NCBI GenBank assembly: GCA_902406105.1
Contig: CABPCP010000034.1
Span: forward strand, 1-28,263
Direction: 5' to 3'
DNA from: an uncultured Mordavella sp.
GTDB taxonomy: Bacteria; Bacillota; Clostridia; Lachnospirales; Lachnospiraceae
DNA: 28,263 nt
Shown: positions 3,644 to 19,920 of the stretch, piece by piece
How the letters are laid out: each line of letters begins with the position of its first letter
How positions within the stretch are numbered: the first letter of the stretch is position 1
Notes under the pieces: model-generated
Told to the model about the DNA's origin: nothing
Databases searched by the model: none
Seen by the model: the letters and a program-made list of their open reading frames with translations, nothing else
Translations under genes and position numbers: made by a program

Positions 3644-4843
3644 CTACAAAGCCTCTTTGATCTGCTGGGCGAAGTTCTCCAGATCTTCCGCCCGGTCGCT
3701 TTTCAACGTAGACTTCAGAGACAGAGAGCCTTCCAAAATCCGCATTTCTTTCATTTCCTCCAACCGCTTCAAAATCTGCTTTCCGGCAGCCGCGGCCCAA
3801 GTTCCATTTTCCATCAGGGCGACCGTACGTTTCTGCACCGAAAGCGCTTTCATATCTGCCAGCAGATTTTCCATTGGCGGATAGATTCCTGCATTGTAGG
3901 TAGGACACGCCAGCACAAGATGGCTGACCCGGAAGATTTCTGAAATCAGATCTGACACATGGGTTCTTGATACGTCATAAACGGCAATATTTTTCACGCC
4001 TTTCTCGGCAAGCTGGCAGGCCAGCGCGTTTACCGCCTGCTCCGTATGGCCGTAAATGGAACCGTAGATCACCGCCACTCCTTTTTCTTCCGGCTCGTAT
4101 CTGCTCCATTTATCATATTTATCGATAAACCAATCGATCTCCGTACGCCAAATGGGGCCGTGAAGCGGGCAGATCATCTGGATATCCAGGGCAGATGCTT
4201 TCTTTAGGAGCGCCTGCACCTGGGCGCCGTATTTGCCGACGATATTGGCATAATATCTCCGGGCTTCTGCCAGGTATTCCTTCTCAAAATCCACCTCATC
4301 GTTGAAAATAGTTCCGTTCAGCGCCCCAAAGGTTCCAAACGCATCGGCGGAAAACAGGATTTTCTCTTTCTCATCATAGGTTACCATAACCTCCGGCCAA
4401 TGGACCATAGGCGCCATAGCAAAACGAAGGGTATGGCTGCCTACAGAAAGGGTATCCCCTTCCTTCACCGTCATTGTGCGTCCTTCCATCTCTATATCGA
4501 AGAACTGTCCGATCATCTGGATCGCTTTGGCGCTGCCCACTACCTGCATCTGGGGATATTTCTCCATCAGAAGCCGGATATTTGCGCAGTGGTCCGGTTC
4601 CATATGATGTACGATCAGATAGTCAATGGCGCGCCCTTCCAGAGCTCCCTCCAGGTTCTCCAGAAATTGTCCGGTAACGGACTCGTCTACCGTATCCATC
4701 AGAGCCACTTTCTCATCTATGAGCAGATAAGAATTATAAGATACGCCCTTAGGAACTGGGAACAAATTCTCAAACAGCGTGATCCGTCTGTCATTGCAGC
4801 CGACCCACAGAATGTCTTCGGTTACTTTCCTTATACTCTGCAT
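3644..4843 (-). CDS. FprA-type flavodiiron protein (A-type flavoprotein)
   Basis: The 399-residue protein has a metallo-beta-lactamase-fold diiron domain followed by a flavodoxin domain. Diiron ligands are visible: His80, Glu82, Asp84 in HHMEPDH, then His148 (MVHWPE), Asp167 (FSADAFG) and His228 (CPLHGP). The FMN-binding loop GSIYGHTE starts near residue 261. Such proteins reduce oxygen to water and/or nitric oxide to nitrous oxide, protecting anaerobes; electrons usually come from rubredoxin or a flavin reductase, neither encoded next door. It has its own promoter overlapping the stop of the upstream gene and an AGGAGGG ribosome site. Length and motifs are normal. Which of O2 or NO is the substrate cannot be read from the sequence. 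Confidence 0.95.
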   Translation of the reverse strand: MQSIRKVTEDILWVGCNDRRITLFENLFPVPKGVSYNSYLLIDEKVALMDTVDESVTGQFLENLEGALEGRAIDYLIVHHMEPDHCANIRLLMEKYPQMQVVGSAKAIQMIGQFFDIEMEGRTMTVKEGDTLSVGSHTLRFAMAPMVHWPEVMVTYDEKEKILFSADAFGTFGALNGTIFNDEVDFEKEYLAEARRYYANIVGKYGAQVQALLKKASALDIQMICPLHGPIWRTEIDWFIDKYDKWSRYEPEEKGVAVIYGSIYGHTEQAVNALACQLAEKGVKNIAVYDVSRTHVSDLISEIFRVSHLVLACPTYNAGIYPPMENLLADMKALSVQKRTVALMENGTWAAAAGKQILKRLEEMKEMRILEGSLSLKSTLKSDRAEDLENFAQQIKEAL

Positions 4844-6616: not shown

Positions 6617-7351
6617 TCAATAATATACTTTCCGCAGAAACAGCCCTCTCGCGGGCGCCAGGAATCCGGCCAAAGACCGATCCTCCGCCGCGATCACCAC
6701 TGGAAGCATATCGGCATCTCTTTCTCCGGTCCCGATCTCCAGAAGCGTCCCCGTCAGGATGCGGACCATATGATATAGGAAGCCGGTCCCATAATAAGTG
6801 ATCCTTACCTTCTCCCCGGTGCTTACGATCTTGATATTGGTGATCCGCCGCACTGGGTCTTTACAGTCTTTGTCGTCTGTAAAGCTGGTAAAGTTCTTAG
6901 GCCCGATCAGATATTTTACCGCGTCCCGCATAGCTTCAATGTCCAGCTTCACCGGGTAGTGATAACAGTACCTTCTGGAAAATACATCTGGCTTCTCCCT
7001 GCAGTCGATATAGTATTCGTATTTCTTTCCTTTGGCGCTCTTTCTTGCGTGAAATCCATTTTTTACCAATTCCACCTTCACGATCCTGATATCTTCCGGG
7101 AGATACCGATTCAGCGCATCTTTAAATTCCTTAGGATCATACAGCTTTGACAGTCTTACACTGGCCACCTGCCCTCTGGCATGGACTCCTGTATCCGTTC
7201 TGCCTGAACCGTCCACCTGAACCCGATATCCCACCAGCTTCCCGATGCTCCACTCCAGAACAAACTGGATGGTATTGTCGGTCGTCGCCTGCCGCTGCCA
7301 CCCTTGATATCTGCTCCCATCATAGGAAATCGTCAGTTTATAAGTCCTCAT
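6617..7351 (-). CDS. truA: tRNA pseudouridine(38-40) synthase
   Basis: The 244-residue protein begins [20 protein letters not shown], the TruA N-terminus, and has the catalytic Asp53 in [16 protein letters not shown]. Later [15 protein letters not shown], also conserved, is near residue 200. It isomerises uridines 38-40 of the tRNA anticodon arm. It follows nrdR after 36 bp. The ribosome site (GAGAAGAG) is modest, consistent with translation from a polycistronic transcript. Length and motifs are normal. Confidence 0.96.
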
Positions 7352-8259: not shown

Positions 8260-9474
8260 CTAGGCCGACATGATCTTTTCACTCTCAAACGCCTTCACGA
8301 TCACCGCCAGAAGCGCTCCGCCAAGGACAAGAGTCTCCGCAAGAGCGACCCCATACTGCGCGGCTGTCACCTCCTGGCTTAAGACGCCCTGCAGAGCCAG
8401 CGCGTTATTATAAAGGGGAATCACAAAATCCTGCATCTGCGGGCTTCCAGAGGTAAACATGGTGAAAAGTCCTATGATCAGTATCAGCATATAGATCGGC
8501 ATCACATAAGTATTGGCTTCCTTCACTGATTTCGCAAATACAGAGATCAGAGCGATAATGCTGGCATACAAAAACGCGATAGCCACCAGCATGGCTCCCA
8601 GCATCACGATCTGAACCGGGCTGAGACTAATATTAAGATCTTCCAAAGCTCCCATCCCCATGCTGTTCTTCATGACCGGCGCGCAGATCACCATAGCCGC
8701 CACATAGATCAGAGAAGACGCTCCAGCCACCAGCATCAAGGCAAACACTTTCCCAAGGGCGATCGAGCTTCTTTTCACCGGCGATACCAGGAGACTTGCC
8801 ATTGTTCCGCGCTCCTTCTCTCCAGCGATCATATCCGTTCCAATCCCCATTGCTCCAGCGAAAAGCAGGATCGTGATAAAATAGGGCAGCATCATTCCCA
8901 CCGCCTTATTGCTGGCCTTTGCCTCATCCTGGATCACCATATCCGGATTGTCTGAATTCACTTGAAATACCGTCAGCTCTGACAGATCTTCCACTCGCTG
9001 GGCCAACAGGGTCTGCCGGTAACCTTCCAAAGTCTGGTTCATACTGTCAAAGGCCGCGGCGGAATAATTTTCCGATGGATTGTAATAGGTCTTGATCTGA
9101 GGAATTTCATTTCCCGGTTCATAGGTTTCTATCTTTTGCTGGAAATCTTCCGGAAATTCTACGATCAGATCCGCTTCTCCGGCCAGGATCTCACCCTTGG
9201 CCGCCTCCATTTCTTTCGCTCCAGCAAGAGTTGCCGTCTGCCAGGAACCTTCCGCGCTTTCTAAAAATTTGTCAAAGGATTCCGGGCTGTTCCATAGATA
9301 TACCTGGGCCTTATGGCTGCGGATGTCTTCTTCCATATTGGAGGCCAATGTATTGACCACCGTAAGGATCACGACCATGATCAATACCGGAAGCAGAAAT
9401 ACAGAAAACATCATTTTCTTATCTTTGAAGATCCGGGCCATCTCTTTCCCAAAAATCTGCTTGATCCCGTTCAT
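8260..9474 (-). CDS. ABC-2 type exporter permease (NatB-like)
   Basis: The 404-residue protein has one N-terminal transmembrane segment (MMFSVFLLPVLIMVVILTVV), a large extracytoplasmic domain (about 45-190) and a C-terminal cluster of five or six membrane segments beginning AVGMMLPYFITILLFAGAMG. The segment GEKERGTMASLLVSPVKRS is the coupling region typical of NatB/ABC-2 permeases. Its ATG follows the TAG of the ATPase gene directly, with GGGGGAGG inside the upstream gene as ribosome site, so translation is coupled. It probably exports ions or small molecules with the partner ATPase; the substrate cannot be read from sequence. Confidence 0.88.
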   Translation of the reverse strand: MNGIKQIFGKEMARIFKDKKMMFSVFLLPVLIMVVILTVVNTLASNMEEDIRSHKAQVYLWNSPESFDKFLESAEGSWQTATLAGAKEMEAAKGEILAGEADLIVEFPEDFQQKIETYEPGNEIPQIKTYYNPSENYSAAAFDSMNQTLEGYRQTLLAQRVEDLSELTVFQVNSDNPDMVIQDEAKASNKAVGMMLPYFITILLFAGAMGIGTDMIAGEKERGTMASLLVSPVKRSSIALGKVFALMLVAGASSLIYVAAMVICAPVMKNSMGMGALEDLNISLSPVQIVMLGAMLVAIAFLYASIIALISVFAKSVKEANTYVMPIYMLILIIGLFTMFTSGSPQMQDFVIPLYNNALALQGVLSQEVTAAQYGVALAETLVLGGALLAVIVKAFESEKIMSA

Positions 9475-11787: not shown

Positions 11788-11810
11788 TCGGGGTAACAGG
11801 ATTCGAACCT
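11788..11810. repeat. attachment-site repeat, integrase-proximal end
   Basis: This 23-bp sequence, beginning TCGGGGTAACAGGATTCG, is identical to 19898-19920. It equals the discriminator, 3' acceptor strand and T-arm/T-loop of tRNA-Pro, but the sequence beyond it (ATTCCTAG) is not tRNA. It marks the far junction of the integrated element. Confidence 0.92.
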
Positions 11811-12094: not shown

Positions 12095-13291
12095 TTAGCT
12101 GTTTACTACGCTTTTAGCCTTCTCGAACTCCTCATTCAATCTGCCTGCATCCGCCTTCACTCTTGACTGAATTGAATGCTGATACCTGCGTGAACTCTTG
12201 ATACTGCTGTGTCCGCCCATGCTAATCATGGAGAGGTCGCTGAATCCTTCAATGCTAGAACACAACGAAAAGTAGGTATGTCTGAGATCGTGAAGTCTGT
12301 AGCATGGCAGGTCTGGACAGCTCTTCTGCATGAATGTCTTGAACGTTTTGTATATCCTGTTTGGCTTCATAGGCGTATACGTATCATGCTGTAAAATCAG
12401 AACGTGATTTTCCCCCTGGAAATCTGGTGCTTTTGCCTGTAGTCTGAAATATCTCTTACGTGCTCTCACGAGAATTTTGTAGAGCGTTCCATTTACTACT
12501 AAGGGAACTTTTCTTGTTCCGGCTTCTGTCTTTGTTCCTTTTTCAATCACCCCTTCCTTTGTCGAAACCTCCGCACGTTGTATCATTATGCATGGATTTT
12601 CTTCATCAAGTGAAATGTCCTCCCATCTCAAGCCTGCAAGTTCTGAACGCCTAAGTCCGCCTCCGAGGCAGGTCAGTCCTACGATCAGTTCAACGTTAAT
12701 GTTCTTTTCCGCTCTAGCTCGTGCCAGCATTGTCTTGACCTGTTCCATTGTATACGTATGCCCCACTGTCTCAGCTTTTCTAGGCAATCTGATGTATGTG
12801 GTAGGAAGTATACCCGTTAGTTGTAAATAGTTATCACTGATTGCCTGCTTTAATACTACTGACACAAAAGAAACGTGATTCCGAATAGTCTTAGGAGCTT
12901 TACCTGTTGCTATGTAATGGTTCACCATGTCCTGTACAGCCTCTGTCGTTATCTCACTCAGGAAAAGTTCTCCCAAATGACGCCTGATTCCATCCTCTGC
13001 CAAATACATCTGTTCATAGTTCTGTCGTGTGGTCGGAGAAAGAAATCCCATGTACTTCTCTCTGTAGACCTTTTCGTAGTATTCACGGAAAAGCATTTTC
13101 TCTTTGTCAAGGTAGTTTCCGTACTCAATGTTTAAACTCATCTGACAGCAGATTCTGTCTGCCTCAGCTTTTTTTGTTCCTGCCGGAAGCATTTTGTAAC
13201 TTCTCCGGCGTACTCCGTCACGAGTCCAGTCTCGGACGATCCTGTATCTGATCCCAGACGGACGCTTTACTTTTTCAACGTATAGCTTCAT
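12095..13291 (-). CDS. int: tyrosine recombinase (integrase) of the element
   Basis: The 398-residue protein has an N-terminal beta-rich arm-binding domain (about 1-65), a SAM-like core-binding domain (about 70-175) and a catalytic domain. Catalytic residues visible: Arg214 (GLRRSE), Lys254 (KGTKTEAG), His334 and Arg337 (LHDLRHT), His361 (GGHSS) and nucleophile Tyr370 (RRYQH). It should insert and excise the element at the tRNA-Pro site, whose repeat lies only 0.3 kb beyond its stop. The start at 13291 has AGAAGGTGAT before it; the ATG at 13339 would overlap the upstream gene. It follows the Xis-like gene by 13 bp. Confidence 0.96.
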   Translation of the reverse strand: MKLYVEKVKRPSGIRYRIVRDWTRDGVRRRSYKMLPAGTKKAEADRICCQMSLNIEYGNYLDKEKMLFREYYEKVYREKYMGFLSPTTRQNYEQMYLAEDGIRRHLGELFLSEITTEAVQDMVNHYIATGKAPKTIRNHVSFVSVVLKQAISDNYLQLTGILPTTYIRLPRKAETVGHTYTMEQVKTMLARARAEKNINVELIVGLTCLGGGLRRSELAGLRWEDISLDEENPCIMIQRAEVSTKEGVIEKGTKTEAGTRKVPLVVNGTLYKILVRARKRYFRLQAKAPDFQGENHVLILQHDTYTPMKPNRIYKTFKTFMQKSCPDLPCYRLHDLRHTYFSLCSSIEGFSDLSMISMGGHSSIKSSRRYQHSIQSRVKADAGRLNEEFEKAKSVVNS

Positions 13292-13304
13292 CTGTATCAC
13301 CTTC

Positions 13305-13517
13305 TTAATATGGGCTGATTTCAAATTCAACCTGTTCATCTGAGAGCAAGAGGCTTTCTACTTCAGCTCTCGAATAAAAATACGTATTTCCGATTTTCTT
13401 GTAGTTGCATTGAGAGTTCAGGAATGCTCTAAGTTTTCTGCAATCCATATTTAGGTATTCTCGCTGAATATCCTGAACGCTTAAAAGCTTACGTGCTATT
13501 TTCTTTTTATTGGTCAT
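13305..13517 (-). CDS. excisionase-like winged-helix DNA-binding protein
   Basis: The 70-residue protein reads LLSVQDIQREYLNMDCRKLR then a predicted wing and YFYSRAEVESLL, the layout of small MerR-type winged-helix proteins used as excisionases or as directionality factors. I infer that it controls the direction of the recombination catalysed by the adjacent integrase. It has a strong GAGGAGGATG ribosome site and overlaps the preceding gene by 4 bp (ATGA), showing translational coupling. A plain transcription regulator is the alternative. Confidence 0.72.
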   Translation of the reverse strand: MTNKKKIARKLLSVQDIQREYLNMDCRKLRAFLNSQCNYKKIGNTYFYSRAEVESLLLSDEQVEFEISPY

Positions 13518-14020: not shown

Positions 14021-14048
14021 ATTCTAATCGACTAATTTTTTTTGTCAT
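14021..14048 (-). promoter_or_regulatory. likely promoter of the xis-int operon
   Basis: Minus strand ATGACA (14048-14043), a 16-bp spacer and TAGAAT (14026-14021). Transcription would start near 14014, about 150 nt before the first gene. Confidence 0.5.
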
Positions 14049-14050
14049 CT

Positions 14051-14107
14051 TTTATTGTGGGGGGGGGATGACGCTTGATTTTTCTCTTCATCCCCCTAGC
14101 AGAAAAA
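14051..14107. repeat. motif Y, copy 1 (structured non-coding repeat)
   Basis: It shares with 17814-17867 the ordered blocks TTTATTGT, ATGAC, TTG, TTTTCTCTTCATC, CCTA and AAAA. In this copy GGGGGATGA (14063-14071) pairs with TCATCCCCC (14088-14096), inside a run of nine G. It lies 10 bp from motif X copy 1. Confidence 0.6.
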
Positions 14108-14117
14108 CCACACAATC

Positions 14118-14178
14118 ACCGTCGGTATCGCCTATTGCGGCTTGACGCCTTGATTTCCTTGTGATTACGGCTGACGGT
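14118..14178. repeat. motif X, copy 1 (61-nt structured repeat)
   Basis: Aligns without gaps to 18005-18065 with 50 of 61 bases identical. The ends pair as an 8-bp stem (ACCGTCGG with CTGACGGT). It begins 7 bp after the stop of the replication ATPase on the minus strand, in a 320-bp gap (13865-14184) otherwise holding motif Y, a promoter and the long hairpin. Confidence 0.75.
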
Positions 14179-14184
14179 TTTCTG

Positions 14185-15633
14185 TCAATTTTTTAATTTT
14201 CTCTGCTTCGGTGTCTTTCGCCAAATGTGTATCTGCCTGAATGCACCGATATTTTTTATGTCAAAAAATATTCCTGCACCTTCGAGATTCGATTTTAACT
14301 CGTTCAACCGGCGAGAAAGTATGTTCGGTTGCCCCGGAAGTAGTGACGCTTTTATCGCATTTTCCCCTGCTATGTCGCAGAGATCGCCAAGCAACTGTGT
14401 TACTGAGCCAAAATACTCATTCCTTGAACTCATCAGTTCTATAAGGCACTGTGCTACCAAATTTTCTCCAAGCGTCTCTTTATTTACCGCTTTATGATTT
14501 TTCCAGATCATCTCTGCCGTCTTCTCGTCTTCCAGTCCAAAAATACGTCCTACCTTTACGGCTAACTCGAACCAATCTGCCATCCGGGTTTTTTTCTGAA
14601 CTACTATAGGTTGATCGTCAGCAAGTACTTCTGAAATGCAGAGAAAAATCGCACCAATAAATTTGGGCAGGTCACCTTCAAAGGACTCCTTGAGCTCCCT
14701 CTCGGTTTTTATCTCCGACTGTGGAATGCGCTGAAGTTTAAAAACGATCGCGCGGTCAAGAAGGTCCGCCTCCGTAGCAACCATTCCGATCCCATTCAAC
14801 GCAATCACGCAACTCAAGTTTAACGTAAGCTCATTTGCATCAGTATAGAGCTGTCGTCTGGATGTCGAACCTCCAGTTATTGCTCTTGCCAAGAGGTCAC
14901 TCGTCCTTTTTTTAAGGAAGGAAAGGTTGTCAAACGTACTGAAATAATTATTGTTTAGCCGGATTTCCAGATCAGAATCACTACGAGGTGCGCCCATAAT
15001 ATCCGTAGTCTTTGGATCGACAATCCGCTCGATTCGACGTAAGATGCTCGATTTACTGCTCCCCTTCTCTCCTTGCAAAATCAGCAGTGGAACGTTAACC
15101 AACGGCTTAAGAAACGCTGTCACGAGATAAATGCCAAACAACACTTCATCTTCCTTTGTCCGCAATCTGAAATGTTTGTGAACCAATTCCGGCAGTTCTT
15201 CGGCTTCCGTTTCTCTATCCGGCTCAACCTGTGGAGCATACGTCGGATTTTGCAAAAAAACTTTTTGAGGGGTTTGAATGTCTTCATATCCTTCAGCGCT
15301 GATCTTGTACGCTCGCCTTCGTGTTGCATTTAAATCATAGCAAATCCAGCCATCTAAGTGATATGCCACACGAATCCGAAGATTTCTTTTCAAAGGATGC
15401 CGATACGCAAAATATTGTATTTCTTCAATGTATTCCGCAACCCTCCTGCCTGACGGCAATTTTCCAGTCGTCTTTTTGATTACGTCTCTCAAAATCATCT
15501 GAAATCTGGTGTCATCAGGGTGAAACGTTTTGAGCGACTCTCCCATCGCCACCTCCACCCAAAGTTGTCCGTCCGCTGTAGAAAAGAGCGTCAAAACACC
15601 GTCTTGAATTAAATTTTTTATATCTTTTGTCAT
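14185..15633 (-). CDS. primase-helicase-like AAA+ ATPase, probable replication protein
   Basis: The 482-residue protein has an N-terminal domain (about 1-155, including RIRVAYHLDGWICYDLNATR) seen at the front of the helicase part of many phage and island primase fusions. The ATPase domain follows: Walker A GEKGSSKS (188-195), Walker B-like STFDNLS (232-238), GGSTSRRQLYTD (254-265), sensor VIALNGI (276-282) and LLDRAI with a likely arginine finger. It probably unwinds DNA for replication of the excised element. No separate primase active site is visible. The ATG at 15633 lacks a good ribosome site; an AGAAGGAGGT motif lies about 40 nt further upstream, so the true start or its control is uncertain. 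Confidence 0.83.
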   Translation of the reverse strand: MTKDIKNLIQDGVLTLFSTADGQLWVEVAMGESLKTFHPDDTRFQMILRDVIKKTTGKLPSGRRVAEYIEEIQYFAYRHPLKRNLRIRVAYHLDGWICYDLNATRRRAYKISAEGYEDIQTPQKVFLQNPTYAPQVEPDRETEAEELPELVHKHFRLRTKEDEVLFGIYLVTAFLKPLVNVPLLILQGEKGSSKSSILRRIERIVDPKTTDIMGAPRSDSDLEIRLNNNYFSTFDNLSFLKKRTSDLLARAITGGSTSRRQLYTDANELTLNLSCVIALNGIGMVATEADLLDRAIVFKLQRIPQSEIKTERELKESFEGDLPKFIGAIFLCISEVLADDQPIVVQKKTRMADWFELAVKVGRIFGLEDEKTAEMIWKNHKAVNKETLGENLVAQCLIELMSSRNEYFGSVTQLLGDLCDIAGENAIKASLLPGQPNILSRRLNELKSNLEGAGIFFDIKNIGAFRQIHIWRKTPKQRKLKN

Positions 15634-15693
15634 TTTTTCTTTTTTAGAAATCCCGGGAAGTCTATATTTTACCTCCTTCTATTTTTTGCACGC

Positions 15694-15753
15694 AAAAAGA
15701 CGCACTCCACCTGTAATTTTGATTGTTATCAAAACCACAAAGTGAAATGCGTC
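15694..15753 (-). promoter_or_regulatory. terminator-like hairpin in the leader of the replication gene
   Basis: On the minus strand GACGCATTTCAC pairs with GTGGAGTGCGTC (12 bp, two G-U) and is followed by TTTTT. The loop holds a second small stem, TTTTGAT with ATCAAAA. It lies between the promoter at 15881-15909 and the gene start at 15633, so it fits a transcription attenuator. Confidence 0.65.
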
Positions 15754-15880
15754 CTTTCATTTTCGACGATTTAAAAAACTCACTTATTATCCTCGCCCAA
15801 TCTCAAAAATATGCGAAGAATTGTTATATAGTTCGATTACTTTATTAACTTTTCAAAGCATCTTCTTGCAATGCCATTTT

Positions 15881-15909
15881 ATTTTATCTCACCATACAAA
15901 ATTTGTCAA
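15881..15909 (-). promoter_or_regulatory. consensus promoter upstream of the replication gene
   Basis: Minus strand TTGACA (15909-15904), 17-bp spacer and TAAAAT (15886-15881). The predicted leader to 15633 is about 240 nt and contains the hairpin at 15694-15753. Apart from these I see no gene between 15634 and 15948. Confidence 0.85.
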
Positions 15910-15948
15910 GATTTCCTGTGCATTTTTCCAATTTTCTGTTATTTTCTA

Positions 15949-16077
15949 TTATTGCCAATTCTTCCTTTTTCGTGTTCTATGATTTCCTGTACGAGCTACT
16001 GTGTAGAAAGAAAGCATGATAGAAATTCCTTCCATGAAGATTTTAAAAAGAACTTCTCTATTCTGTTTATCCATCAT
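15949..16077 (-). CDS. small open reading frame, 42 residues, unknown
   Basis: The reading frame begins with two adjacent ATG codons 1 nt after the stop of the 28-residue gene, and AGGAAGGGG lies 5 nt upstream inside that gene, so it is well placed for coupled translation. The product (MMDKQNREVLFKIFMEGISI then a basic tail ending RTRKRKNWQ) has a short hydrophobic stretch that is weakly membrane-like. I recognise no family, and it could be a chance frame; the ribosome site and spacing are the only support. Confidence 0.45.
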   Translation of the reverse strand: MMDKQNREVLFKIFMEGISIMLSFYTVARTGNHRTRKRKNWQ

Positions 16078-16078
16078 C

Positions 16079-16165
16079 TTATCCCCTTCCTCGTTCTATC
16101 GCCTCAACGATACCTATAATTGCCAATCCCAAAGCAAAGCCACCTAGAAGAACCAAATATTCCAT
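16079..16165 (-). CDS. tiny membrane peptide, 28 residues
   Basis: The product MEYLVLLGGFALGLAIIGIV followed by EAIERGRG is a single hydrophobic helix with a charged C-terminus. Its GAGGAGGAG ribosome site is formed by the glutamate codons at the end of the upstream gene, whose stop lies 4 nt before this ATG, so the two are coupled. Tiny one-helix proteins of this type occur in toxin-antitoxin systems, phage lysis and regulation; nothing here decides between these. Confidence 0.6.
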   Translation of the reverse strand: MEYLVLLGGFALGLAIIGIVEAIERGRG

Positions 16166-16169
16166 TCTA

Positions 16170-16529
16170 CTACTCCTCCTCTTCTTGCGGTGAGATGATT
16201 GTTATTCCATAATCATTCGTAATTATATACAGCCTGACCTCCCATGTCTCTTCTGACTGACTTTCAATATTCTCTCGGTATTCGACTTCATCACTGCGCA
16301 CGTGATATTTTTCAAGAACCTCCTTCAAATCATTGTCTCTCACTGGTTCTGTGCAAAAAAGAATGAATCCTCCATCATCTTTCTGTGCCTCCCTCAAATC
16401 ACCATACACATTATCCAAAATCCCCAGTATGCGCTCTGTCTCTTTTCGGACTGCATCAGGCGCACCGCATTGATCGCACAGGACGTTTACCTCATCCATC
16501 TGTCTTTTTGTCCAAAATACTTTTTTCAC
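16170..16529 (-). CDS. unrecognised acidic element protein, GTG start
   Basis: This 119-residue acidic protein starts with GTG (GGGAGG lies 8 nt upstream). It begins MKKVFWTKRQMDEVNVLCDQ, with a CDQCG pair of cysteines, has a central helical region and ends in a beta-rich part (TWEVRLYIITNDYGITIISP) plus a run of four glutamates. No family is recognised. It sits 17 bp after the preceding gene and its last codons form the ribosome site of the next tiny gene, so it is part of one operon. Confidence 0.7.
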   Translation of the reverse strand: MKKVFWTKRQMDEVNVLCDQCGAPDAVRKETERILGILDNVYGDLREAQKDDGGFILFCTEPVRDNDLKEVLEKYHVRSDEVEYRENIESQSEETWEVRLYIITNDYGITIISPQEEEE

Positions 16530-16546
16530 TGTTCATGCCTCCCTCT

Positions 16547-17128
16547 TTATAGAATTATAAATTCATCATTCAAAGCATCTATAAATAGTTCTCTTCCACC
16601 AAACCGTGACTCATCAAGTTCTCCTACACACCTGATATTTACGCTCTGCACCTCCCGGTCTGCCAAAGCCAAAATTTCAGGCTTTATCTGTTCTTCAAGA
16701 TATCTCTGTCTGCTTTTTCTGTCCTTGGCGCAGTATGACTCATATCGTTCAAAATTCCAAATGCCTGTCTGGATTATGGCATCACCCATTCTTTCAAGCA
16801 AAGCAAGGTCAGCATTCTCACCGAGATCAATCAAAAGGTATACGTCCTGTTCATTATCTCTTCTGATCTCGCCCTCGTCCGTTATGTAGTAGTCCAGTCG
16901 TTTTACCGAATGCTTCCCAGTCTGTTGTGACTCGTACTCCTGCACGATCACCTTCCACTCTCCCTGATGCAGGAACTGAAATGTTAGTAGCTCACGTATC
17001 CAGTCCGCTTTACTCTGTGTGTATCCAGACGGTGGGCTATTGATGTCAGCAATGTCAAGGCATGGGGTTTCTTTATTCCATCTATCCTCACGCAAAAACC
17101 ATTCTTCTATTGATGTGTACTCTGTCAT
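16547..17128 (-). CDS. unrecognised element protein, 193 residues
   Basis: The ATG at 17128 overlaps the stop of the DUF1643 gene as ATGA, so translation is coupled; the longer frame to 17203 would overlap more. The product begins MTEYTSIEEWFLREDRWNKE, is mixed alpha/beta and acidic, and includes KRLDYYITDEGEIRRD and DVYLLIDLGENADLALLERM. I see no membrane segment and no catalytic motif that I can name. Co-transcription with the DUF1643 gene suggests a joint function. Confidence 0.75.
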   Translation of the reverse strand: MTEYTSIEEWFLREDRWNKETPCLDIADINSPPSGYTQSKADWIRELLTFQFLHQGEWKVIVQEYESQQTGKHSVKRLDYYITDEGEIRRDNEQDVYLLIDLGENADLALLERMGDAIIQTGIWNFERYESYCAKDRKSRQRYLEEQIKPEILALADREVQSVNIRCVGELDESRFGGRELFIDALNDEFIIL

Positions 17129-17745
17129 TTTTTCTTTCCTCCTCGTTCTCTCTCTGCAAGGATTTTCAGTTCTTTCTTGGTGGGGAACGTTCCCAACTTC
17201 CATTTAGCATTGCTATGCCGGATGCCCATATACAGCGGATGCACTCCCGAAATCTCTTTGGGAAGTCCGTCAGTCACGATCTGTTTCAGGGCTACTGCCG
17301 GATGTGTTTTCGTCCAGATTTCAAGAATGCGTTTCTTCGCAGTATTTACTGCCTTTGAAGTCAAGTGTGAATTTCCCCATGCAATGATGACTTCCGTATC
17401 CTCAGTGTTCACCTGCTCAAAAATTTCTTTCTCCAGAAATTCCAGATTATCAGTGTCTACGAGAAGCCCTCTTGTGCTCAATCTGGTCGCTGTGACTTTC
17501 GAAAAAAGGTTCACCACCGAGTAAGCTCTCAGCCCCAGTTCCCTCATGTGGTTCTGGATGTGTACGTTTGTAGAATCTTCCACGAAGAAGTTCTCCTGAT
17601 TTCTTGTCGGGTAAAGCATGATGAAAATCCCGTTTTTCCCTTCCATCCCGTTCAGTTCTTTTGTGTAGAGATATGTGTATTTTCCATCCTCCGAGGTTAC
17701 TATCTTTGAAGTTGTCTGAATCTCTTTTTGTACTGTTTTTGCCAT
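17125..17745 (-). CDS. DUF1643 family protein
   Basis: The 206-residue protein matches the DUF1643 layout: a hydrophobic strand then YPTRNQ (45-50) in place of the usual NPSTA, a DSTN segment (57-60), SVVNLFSKVTAT (76-87) and VIIAWGNS (119-126). The family is common in phages and defence or mobile regions; its activity is not established. The start has AAAGGATG 8 nt upstream and, just before that, a strong terminator-like hairpin. It heads a run of at least five closely spaced or overlapping small genes (17745 down to 15949). The basic C-terminus ends GGKKK. Confidence 0.8.
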   Translation of the reverse strand: MAKTVQKEIQTTSKIVTSEDGKYTYLYTKELNGMEGKNGIFIMLYPTRNQENFFVEDSTNVHIQNHMRELGLRAYSVVNLFSKVTATRLSTRGLLVDTDNLEFLEKEIFEQVNTEDTEVIIAWGNSHLTSKAVNTAKKRILEIWTKTHPAVALKQIVTDGLPKEISGVHPLYMGIRHSNAKWKLGTFPTKKELKILAERERGGKKK

Positions 17746-17765
17746 TGTATTTTCATCCTTTCATC

Positions 17766-17807
17766 AAAAAATACGGGCAAACTGACTTTACGCATCAGTT
17801 TGCCCGT
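17766..17807 (-). promoter_or_regulatory. terminator-like hairpin directly before the DUF1643 gene
   Basis: ACGGGCAAACTGA and TCAGTTTGCCCGT form a perfect 13-bp stem with a 9-nt loop, followed on the minus strand by ATTTTTT. It ends about 20 nt before the ATG at 17745, leaving no room for a promoter, so downstream expression needs read-through or antitermination. Confidence 0.75.
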
Positions 17808-17813
17808 TCGTTC

Positions 17814-17867
17814 TTTATTGTAAGAGAATGACTATTGTGTTTTCTCTTCATCTTCCTATCGCAAAAC
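17814..17867. repeat. motif Y, copy 2
   Basis: Shares ordered blocks with 14051-14107, including TTTATTGT, ATGAC and TTTTCTCTTCATC. Its hairpin is weaker than in copy 1. It lies next to the attenuator-like hairpin, on the side away from the gene. A degenerate X-like fragment (ACCGCCAGTCG) follows near 17877. Confidence 0.55.
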
Positions 17868-18003
17868 CGCCTGACTACCGCCAGTCGTTGAATGCTCTTT
17901 TTTCTTTGGTCTATCCATTTTTGTCGGTTCTGTCGATATGATTGCTGAAATTTTTATCTTTTCAATTTTTTCATTCTTCTTTAAGAAAAAATTTTCTCTG
18001 CTT

Positions 18004-18066
18004 TATCGTCAGTATCGCCAAGTGCGACTTGACGCCTTGATTGCCTTGCGGTTTCAGCTGACGATA
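18004..18066. repeat. motif X, copy 2 (structured repeat)
   Basis: Ends pair as a 9-bp stem (TATCGTCAG with CTGACGATA). The inner 61 nt match 14118-14178 at 50 positions without gaps. It lies in the 392-bp gap 17746-18137, which contains no convincing gene and is otherwise AT-rich, with motif Y copy 2 and the hairpin at 17766-17807. Confidence 0.75.
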
Positions 18067-18137
18067 CTGTTGTCGATTTTTCGGTTTCTATGTTCCCTGC
18101 CTCTTTCTCACACAAAAAGAAGAACGACTTTTCTAGT

Positions 18138-19897: not shown

Positions 19898-19920
19898 TCG
19901 GGGTAACAGGATTCGAACCT
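19898..19920. repeat. attachment-site repeat, tRNA side
   Basis: The 23 bp are identical to 11788-11810 and form the 3' part of tRNA-Pro (T-arm half and acceptor). Insertion therefore left the tRNA gene intact. Confidence 0.92.

Follow-up and report, generated by a model that had tools for sequence, protein, structure and literature searches.

Why does a small integrated element carry the same non-coding segment twice, once at its replication gene and once upstream of the DUF1643 operon? The window, by which we mean the whole 28,263-nucleotide stretch analysed (an uncultured Mordavella sp., contig CABPCP010000034.1), contains an element that is probably bounded by a 23-bp repeat and whose size, taken between these boundaries, is ~8.1 kb. 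Its genes include an XRE-type regulator, a DUF1643 gene, a P-loop rep and a tyrosine integrase. No packaging or interference gene was recognised among 10 proteins searched with Pfam, NCBIfam and PHROGs. Papers on staphylococcal cassette elements also name DUF1643. The landmarks of the element are as follows.

11788..11810: likely far attachment site, a 23-bp exact repeat of the tRNA-Pro 3' end
12095..13339, minus strand: tyrosine integrase of the element
14185..15633, minus strand: rep, encoding a 482-aa P-loop helicase-like protein
17125..17745, minus strand: DUF1643 gene, downstream of what is called module copy 2 below
19898..19920: likely near attachment site, the identical 23-bp sequence, inside tRNA-Pro(ggg)

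The two segments, X1 (14118-14178) and X2 (18005-18065), align gap-free with 50 of 61 bases identical, as an earlier note on this DNA had reported from the letters alone. This is the top 61-nt self-match of the element, and the best such match in 20 dinucleotide shuffles of the element reaches 35-39. Gene positions bear out that both copies are intergenic, and that one sits at the 3' end of rep and the other upstream of the DUF1643 operon. The companion motif Y beside each X is likewise a real repeat, though a weaker one (39 nt, 77% identity). The earlier note had also read the segments as a stem with paired changes. The switch of pair 2/60 from C-G to T-A between X1 and X2 is present in the sequences; the G-U/A-U change of pair 7/55 holds when the plus strand is read, and on the gene strand X1 has an A-C mismatch there.

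On one rival reading, the two downstream operons are transcribed with X as a structured leader RNA, either an attenuator or a put-like antiterminator. In its favour, the genes that follow the two copies share one strand, and a T-run hairpin stands between Y2 and the DUF1643 start. Of the four X copies available, two of which come from the relative described below, three show somewhat better folding than shuffled sequence whichever strand is taken (z -1.6 to -3.2). The fourth (8441-8501 of locus L009), however, has no such advantage (z -0.31 and +0.44), and its pair 2/60 is broken (C-A). The argument from G-U changes to a transcribed strand was rejected: in X1 these changes point to the plus strand, in the fourth copy to neither. 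Compensatory change across homologues, the mark of a structured cis-regulatory RNA, was not found over the four copies: the observed score for pair changes was reached by 254 of 500 shuffles, in a test of low power. Rfam at the gathering score finds two tRNAs only, and between 13850 and 18140 gives three sub-threshold matches (E 0.15-0.62), one of which (RefA9, 17773-17846) overlaps Y2. An RNA stem would moreover leave unexplained both the repeats inside each arm and the similar length of spacers with unrelated sequence in relatives. Four copies weigh little by themselves, but with the repeats in X read as iterons nothing speaks for an RNA. We consider a leader RNA extremely unlikely. The apparent covariation between X1 and X2 can arise because both arms copy one protein site; the case illustrates how inverted protein-binding repeats may mimic RNA covariation between two copies.

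The nature of X becomes clearer in a close relative. L009 is a Mediterraneibacter MAG locus with a Rep 70% identical to that of the window, and alone among 21 loci with Rep relatives (8 + 13) it matches X in sequence. It does so in the same two places, at 4515-4575 (95% identity to X2) and 8441-8501 (83% to X1 over 54 nt). Each L009 copy is a complete module running from X through an A-rich tract to Y, and the rep-side copy overlaps the rep stop, as window copy 1 does. X and Y are thus parts of a single longer module, which is full at X2 and in both L009 copies. Comparison with the L009 module and X2 shows that ~128 nt between X and Y are absent at X1.

The complete module comprises ~215 nt, in which two sets of inverted tandem 9-bp repeat pairs flank an A/T-rich tract. 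Each set consists of tandem 9-bp repeats, a ~36-nt spacer and inverted tandem repeats, and X, with its arms built from 9-bp repeats in inverted orientation, is one half of the module; together with its upstream flank it makes up the first set. In the full module, set 1 (left pair, 36 nt, right pair) is followed by 65 nt of 78% A+T and then by set 2, which has the same 36-nt spacing; the right pair of set 2 is weaker and lies where Y begins. The parts are located in the window as follows.

14051..14107, minus strand: Y1, which closes module copy 1 on the right; neither the A/T tract nor a second iteron set lies between it and X1
14117..14134, plus strand: copy 1, right iteron pair (inverted), degenerate, with units of 2.3 and 5.2 of 14.3 bits
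14135..14170: copy 1, 36-nt spacer
14171..14190, minus strand: copy 1, left iteron pair, overlapping the rep stop codon
17814..17867, minus strand: Y2, right end of module copy 2
17865..17884, plus strand: copy 2, iteron set 2, weaker right pair after a 36-nt spacer; the same sequence in L009 scores 10.6 bits
17921..17938, minus strand: copy 2, iteron set 2, left pair, with the top matrix score of the 28-kb window
17939..18003: copy 2, 65-nt tract with 78% A+T (element 59%), proposed unwinding region
18004..18021, plus strand: copy 2, iteron set 1, right pair (inverted, 9-nt step)
18022..18057: copy 2, set 1, 36-nt spacer
18058..18078, minus strand: copy 2, iteron set 1, left pair (12-nt step)

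The geometry is nearly constant. Spacers measure 36 and 36 nt in window copy 2, 36 in the single set of copy 1, 36/36 and 36/35 in the two L009 copies, and 38/37 in the more distant locus L010. In both the window and L009, set 1 has its left outer repeat shifted, the step being 11-12 nt and not 9. The complete window copy, at X2, lies ~2.2 kb from rep on its 5' side.

We checked the repeats with a 9-bp iteron matrix (consensus TATCGACAG) built from 29 units of seven loci, with the window and L009 excluded; a weakness of this check is that the training units had been picked by eye. Four of the seven window sites scoring at least 14 bits group at 17921-18078 (two share one 9-mer). This is the only cluster in the window, and none of 100 shuffles placed more than two sites together. 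The top window score of 19.9 was reached by 1 of 100 shuffles and a score of 18.1 by 9 of 100; it is the cluster, not a single site, that carries weight, since single top scores also occur in shuffles. In L009 all seven matrix sites fall within its two modules, and in each of the seven training loci, when left out, the top site lay at or just past the rep end. The matrix finds no strong site at X1, where the units score 5.1, 2.5, 2.3 and 5.2 of 14.3 bits, compared with 5.7-14.3 bits for the six listed units of copy 2. Window copy 1 looks decayed because of these poor scores.

At loci with a Rep 33-45% identical to that of the window, this inverted double repeat is often present in the rep 3' flank, with a spacer of unrelated sequence and similar length. 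A scan for 19-nt arms recovered sites with 15-17 of 19 matches and spacers of 36-39 nt in L011, L012, L015, L016, L017, L018, L020 and L002, as well as in L019 (spacer 33). In each of these nine loci the site was reached by 0 of 60 shuffles, and in L011 by 2 of 100 in a further run. The site was not singled out by this ungapped scan in X1, X2, L009, L010, L013, L014 or L021; both window copies are missed because of the shifted left outer repeat of X2, with its step of 12 nt and not 9. In one run 8 of 23 loci were left unscored, as rep was not located by the P-loop pattern.

A matrix-free search of 24 sequences gave a top site better than all eight shuffles in 16. In nine of these (L010, L011, L012, L015, L016, L017, L018, L020 and L026) an iteron-like double repeat located 3' of rep comes out on top; in L010 it lies 350 nt past rep, beyond another ORF. 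In L009 and the window the top site is the DUF1643-side copy, and the search lists neither X1 nor the rep-side copy of L009. The top site of L035 is just upstream of rep, L027 and L028 show different repeats within the rep ORF, and L014 and L033 beat shuffles with unrelated sites only. The remaining eight (L013, L019, L021, L025, L029, L030, L031 and L032) were no better than shuffles. The count of independent loci is smaller than these numbers, because near-duplicates occur among them (L012/L018 and L016/L017/L020). L034, which lies on the L009 contig, had been dropped before counting, along with L001-L008, L023 and L024 as duplicates (of L010, L029, L025, L030, L031, L033, L032, L013, L009 and L035) and L022, the lone match of a pattern scan of viral contigs, which was taken as chance as the ORFs of its contig look unrelated. 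A search for the X2 region in relative genomes found it in 0 of 61; it was run without a positive control and carries no weight.

Taken by position, window copy 1 and the L009 rep-side copy lie 3' of rep, and the sites of L011, L012, L015, L016, L017, L018, L020 and L026 are on the same side. Taken by structure, two sets flank an A/T-rich tract in window copy 2, in both L009 copies and in L010, and not in window copy 1; L011, L012, L015, L016, L017 and L018 have one set only beside rep at 13 bits or more. L010 (3000-3413, with a two-set array) and L013 (2560-2860) are two related elements in one MAG. The L013 site is only a shortened remnant, apparently two collapsed sets, and can be compared with window copy 1.

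The repeats could also bind another protein of the element, such as a regulator, excisionase, partition or transfer factor. Inverted double repeats are typical of operators too, copy 2 heads an operon, and DUF1643 and a gene for a 119-aa protein accompany rep in 8 of 11 compared loci of at least 9 kb. The DUF1643 gene, the gene for this unknown 119-aa protein and rep occur together in L009, L011, L012 and L014-L018, with differing recombinases and gene order. The site, however, stays at the rep end while DUF1643 and the 119-aa gene shift position, and it accompanies Rep across two recombinase classes. L010, L019 and L026 have only rep in common with the window, on what are short contigs or flanks. 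We regard a partner other than Rep as very unlikely.

At E 0.01 the window's Rep protein itself matches nothing in Pfam, NCBIfam or PHROGs. Metagenome contigs encode further Reps (P0007-P0028) of 50-96% identity. Its structure model predicts a winged-helix-like C-terminus (residues 406-472) and a fold of the kind seen in the self-loading helicases of SaPIs. Among the chains compared, the predicted fold is nearest to the SaPI5 primase-helicase; Foldseek places SaPI5 Rep at rank 25, behind ASFV PrimPol and NrS-1. A Rep-like match of less than 60% identity was found in 28 plasmid and 2 phage records, the module DNA matched none of the plasmid or phage records, and no case of Rep in viral contigs was confirmed. 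Co-evolution of the iterons with parts of Rep was not significant: similarity over 10 loci gave no significant correlation for the C-terminus (Spearman 0.24, p 0.15), the AAA part (0.30, p 0.051) or the N-terminus (0.07, p 0.33).

According to the account in PMC7581432, SaPI Rep recognises an iteron origin directly downstream of its own gene via its C-terminal domain. PMC6092414 places PICI origins directly after the 3' end of rep and describes them as an AT-rich region with an iteron set on either side. This published layout agrees with the architecture of the module, with its presence beside rep in several relatives and with the predicted Rep fold. X very probably represents one of the halves to which Rep binds in a SaPI/PICI-like replication origin, and not an RNA. 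The earlier note had proposed a regulatory RNA pair, a protein-binding cruciform or an origin/transfer site, and of these the origin is supported. It had known no described family; for the whole module that statement fails, given the published PICI layout. The element resembles SaPI5 and the E. coli PICIs in having short iterons in two sets around an AT-rich tract, a helicase-type rep with the origin at its 3' end, and int with a divergent regulator gene. Unlike in SaPIs and PICIs, the iterons of the window are tandem 9-mers in inverted pairs with a ~36-nt spacer, Rep is helicase-only (482 aa), there are two origin copies and no recognised packaging or interference gene; unlike in Gram-positive PICIs, int is oriented the same way as rep. 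The site type is thus already known from phage satellites, and two copies in one element are unusual. The core origin (site II) of SV40 large T antigen also has paired short inverted sites beside an AT tract, a likeness that serves as a works-like analogy only. T antigen binds through its N-terminal domain, in contrast to the C-terminal domain proposed for Rep. A functional parallel between SaPI Rep and T antigen is drawn in PMC7581432. The same source describes the putative origin of SCCmec cch2, where the C-terminal domain of the initiator helicase, a relative of SaPI5 Rep, binds direct repeats that follow the helicase gene. That origin differs in its AAGTG iterons within a 23-bp direct-repeat region and in inverted repeats that are dispensable for binding, and the 36-nt inverted geometry does not figure in what PMC7581432 describes for cch2.

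On the origin reading, the element would circularise once excised, Rep would bind the iterons via its C-terminal domain and assemble into helicase rings on the inverted sites, and the A/T-rich tract would melt, allowing theta replication to begin. We infer Rep binding, melting and replication, as well as the choice of working copy. The complete X2 copy (17865-18078) is the likelier working origin of the two, and window copy 1, which has lost the A/T tract and the second set, is probably weak or dead. This yields a concrete candidate origin for mobile elements of Lachnospiraceae and relatives with an unannotated Rep, and predicts which of two copies is active. The 9-bp matrix and the near-constant geometry could be used to find origins beside other unannotated helicase-type Reps.

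L009 and the window are mostly 85-100% identical across the element (one 150-column stretch, 76%), apart from a sharply bounded block of 52-85% identity (window 14040-16230, L009 6350-8706) that contains rep and module copy 1; module copy 2 sits in the conserved backbone. The block would reflect either exchange of a rep-origin cassette or a fast-evolving cassette. The element may keep two origins that respond to Rep. One would travel with rep as an exchangeable cassette; the other, in the conserved backbone at the head of the DUF1643 operon, might let Rep binding couple replication to operon expression or help rep cassettes recombine between elements. We put this forward as speculative and rather unlikely. 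Alternatively, the module is a true origin and its second copy a functionless passenger duplication, which is a sub-case of the origin reading with overlapping probability. In all seven other DUF1643 loci scanned there is no module-like cluster upstream of DUF1643 (L016 and L017 have one weak site each; the L015 scan covered 387 nt only), and the window's copies are unequal, one being decayed. However, L009 has both copies complete, and in the window it is the DUF1643-side copy that is better kept. A passenger copy thus seems possible, if somewhat doubtful.

Three further features were noticed. A run of nine Gs (14059-14067) lies within the Y1 hairpin, and its L009 counterpart is shorter. At 17765-17808, between module copy 2 and the DUF1643 start, the minus strand has a strong hairpin followed by a T-run, which looks like a terminator or attenuator. 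In L009, a strong hairpin with a T run (6868-6938) is found immediately upstream of rep.
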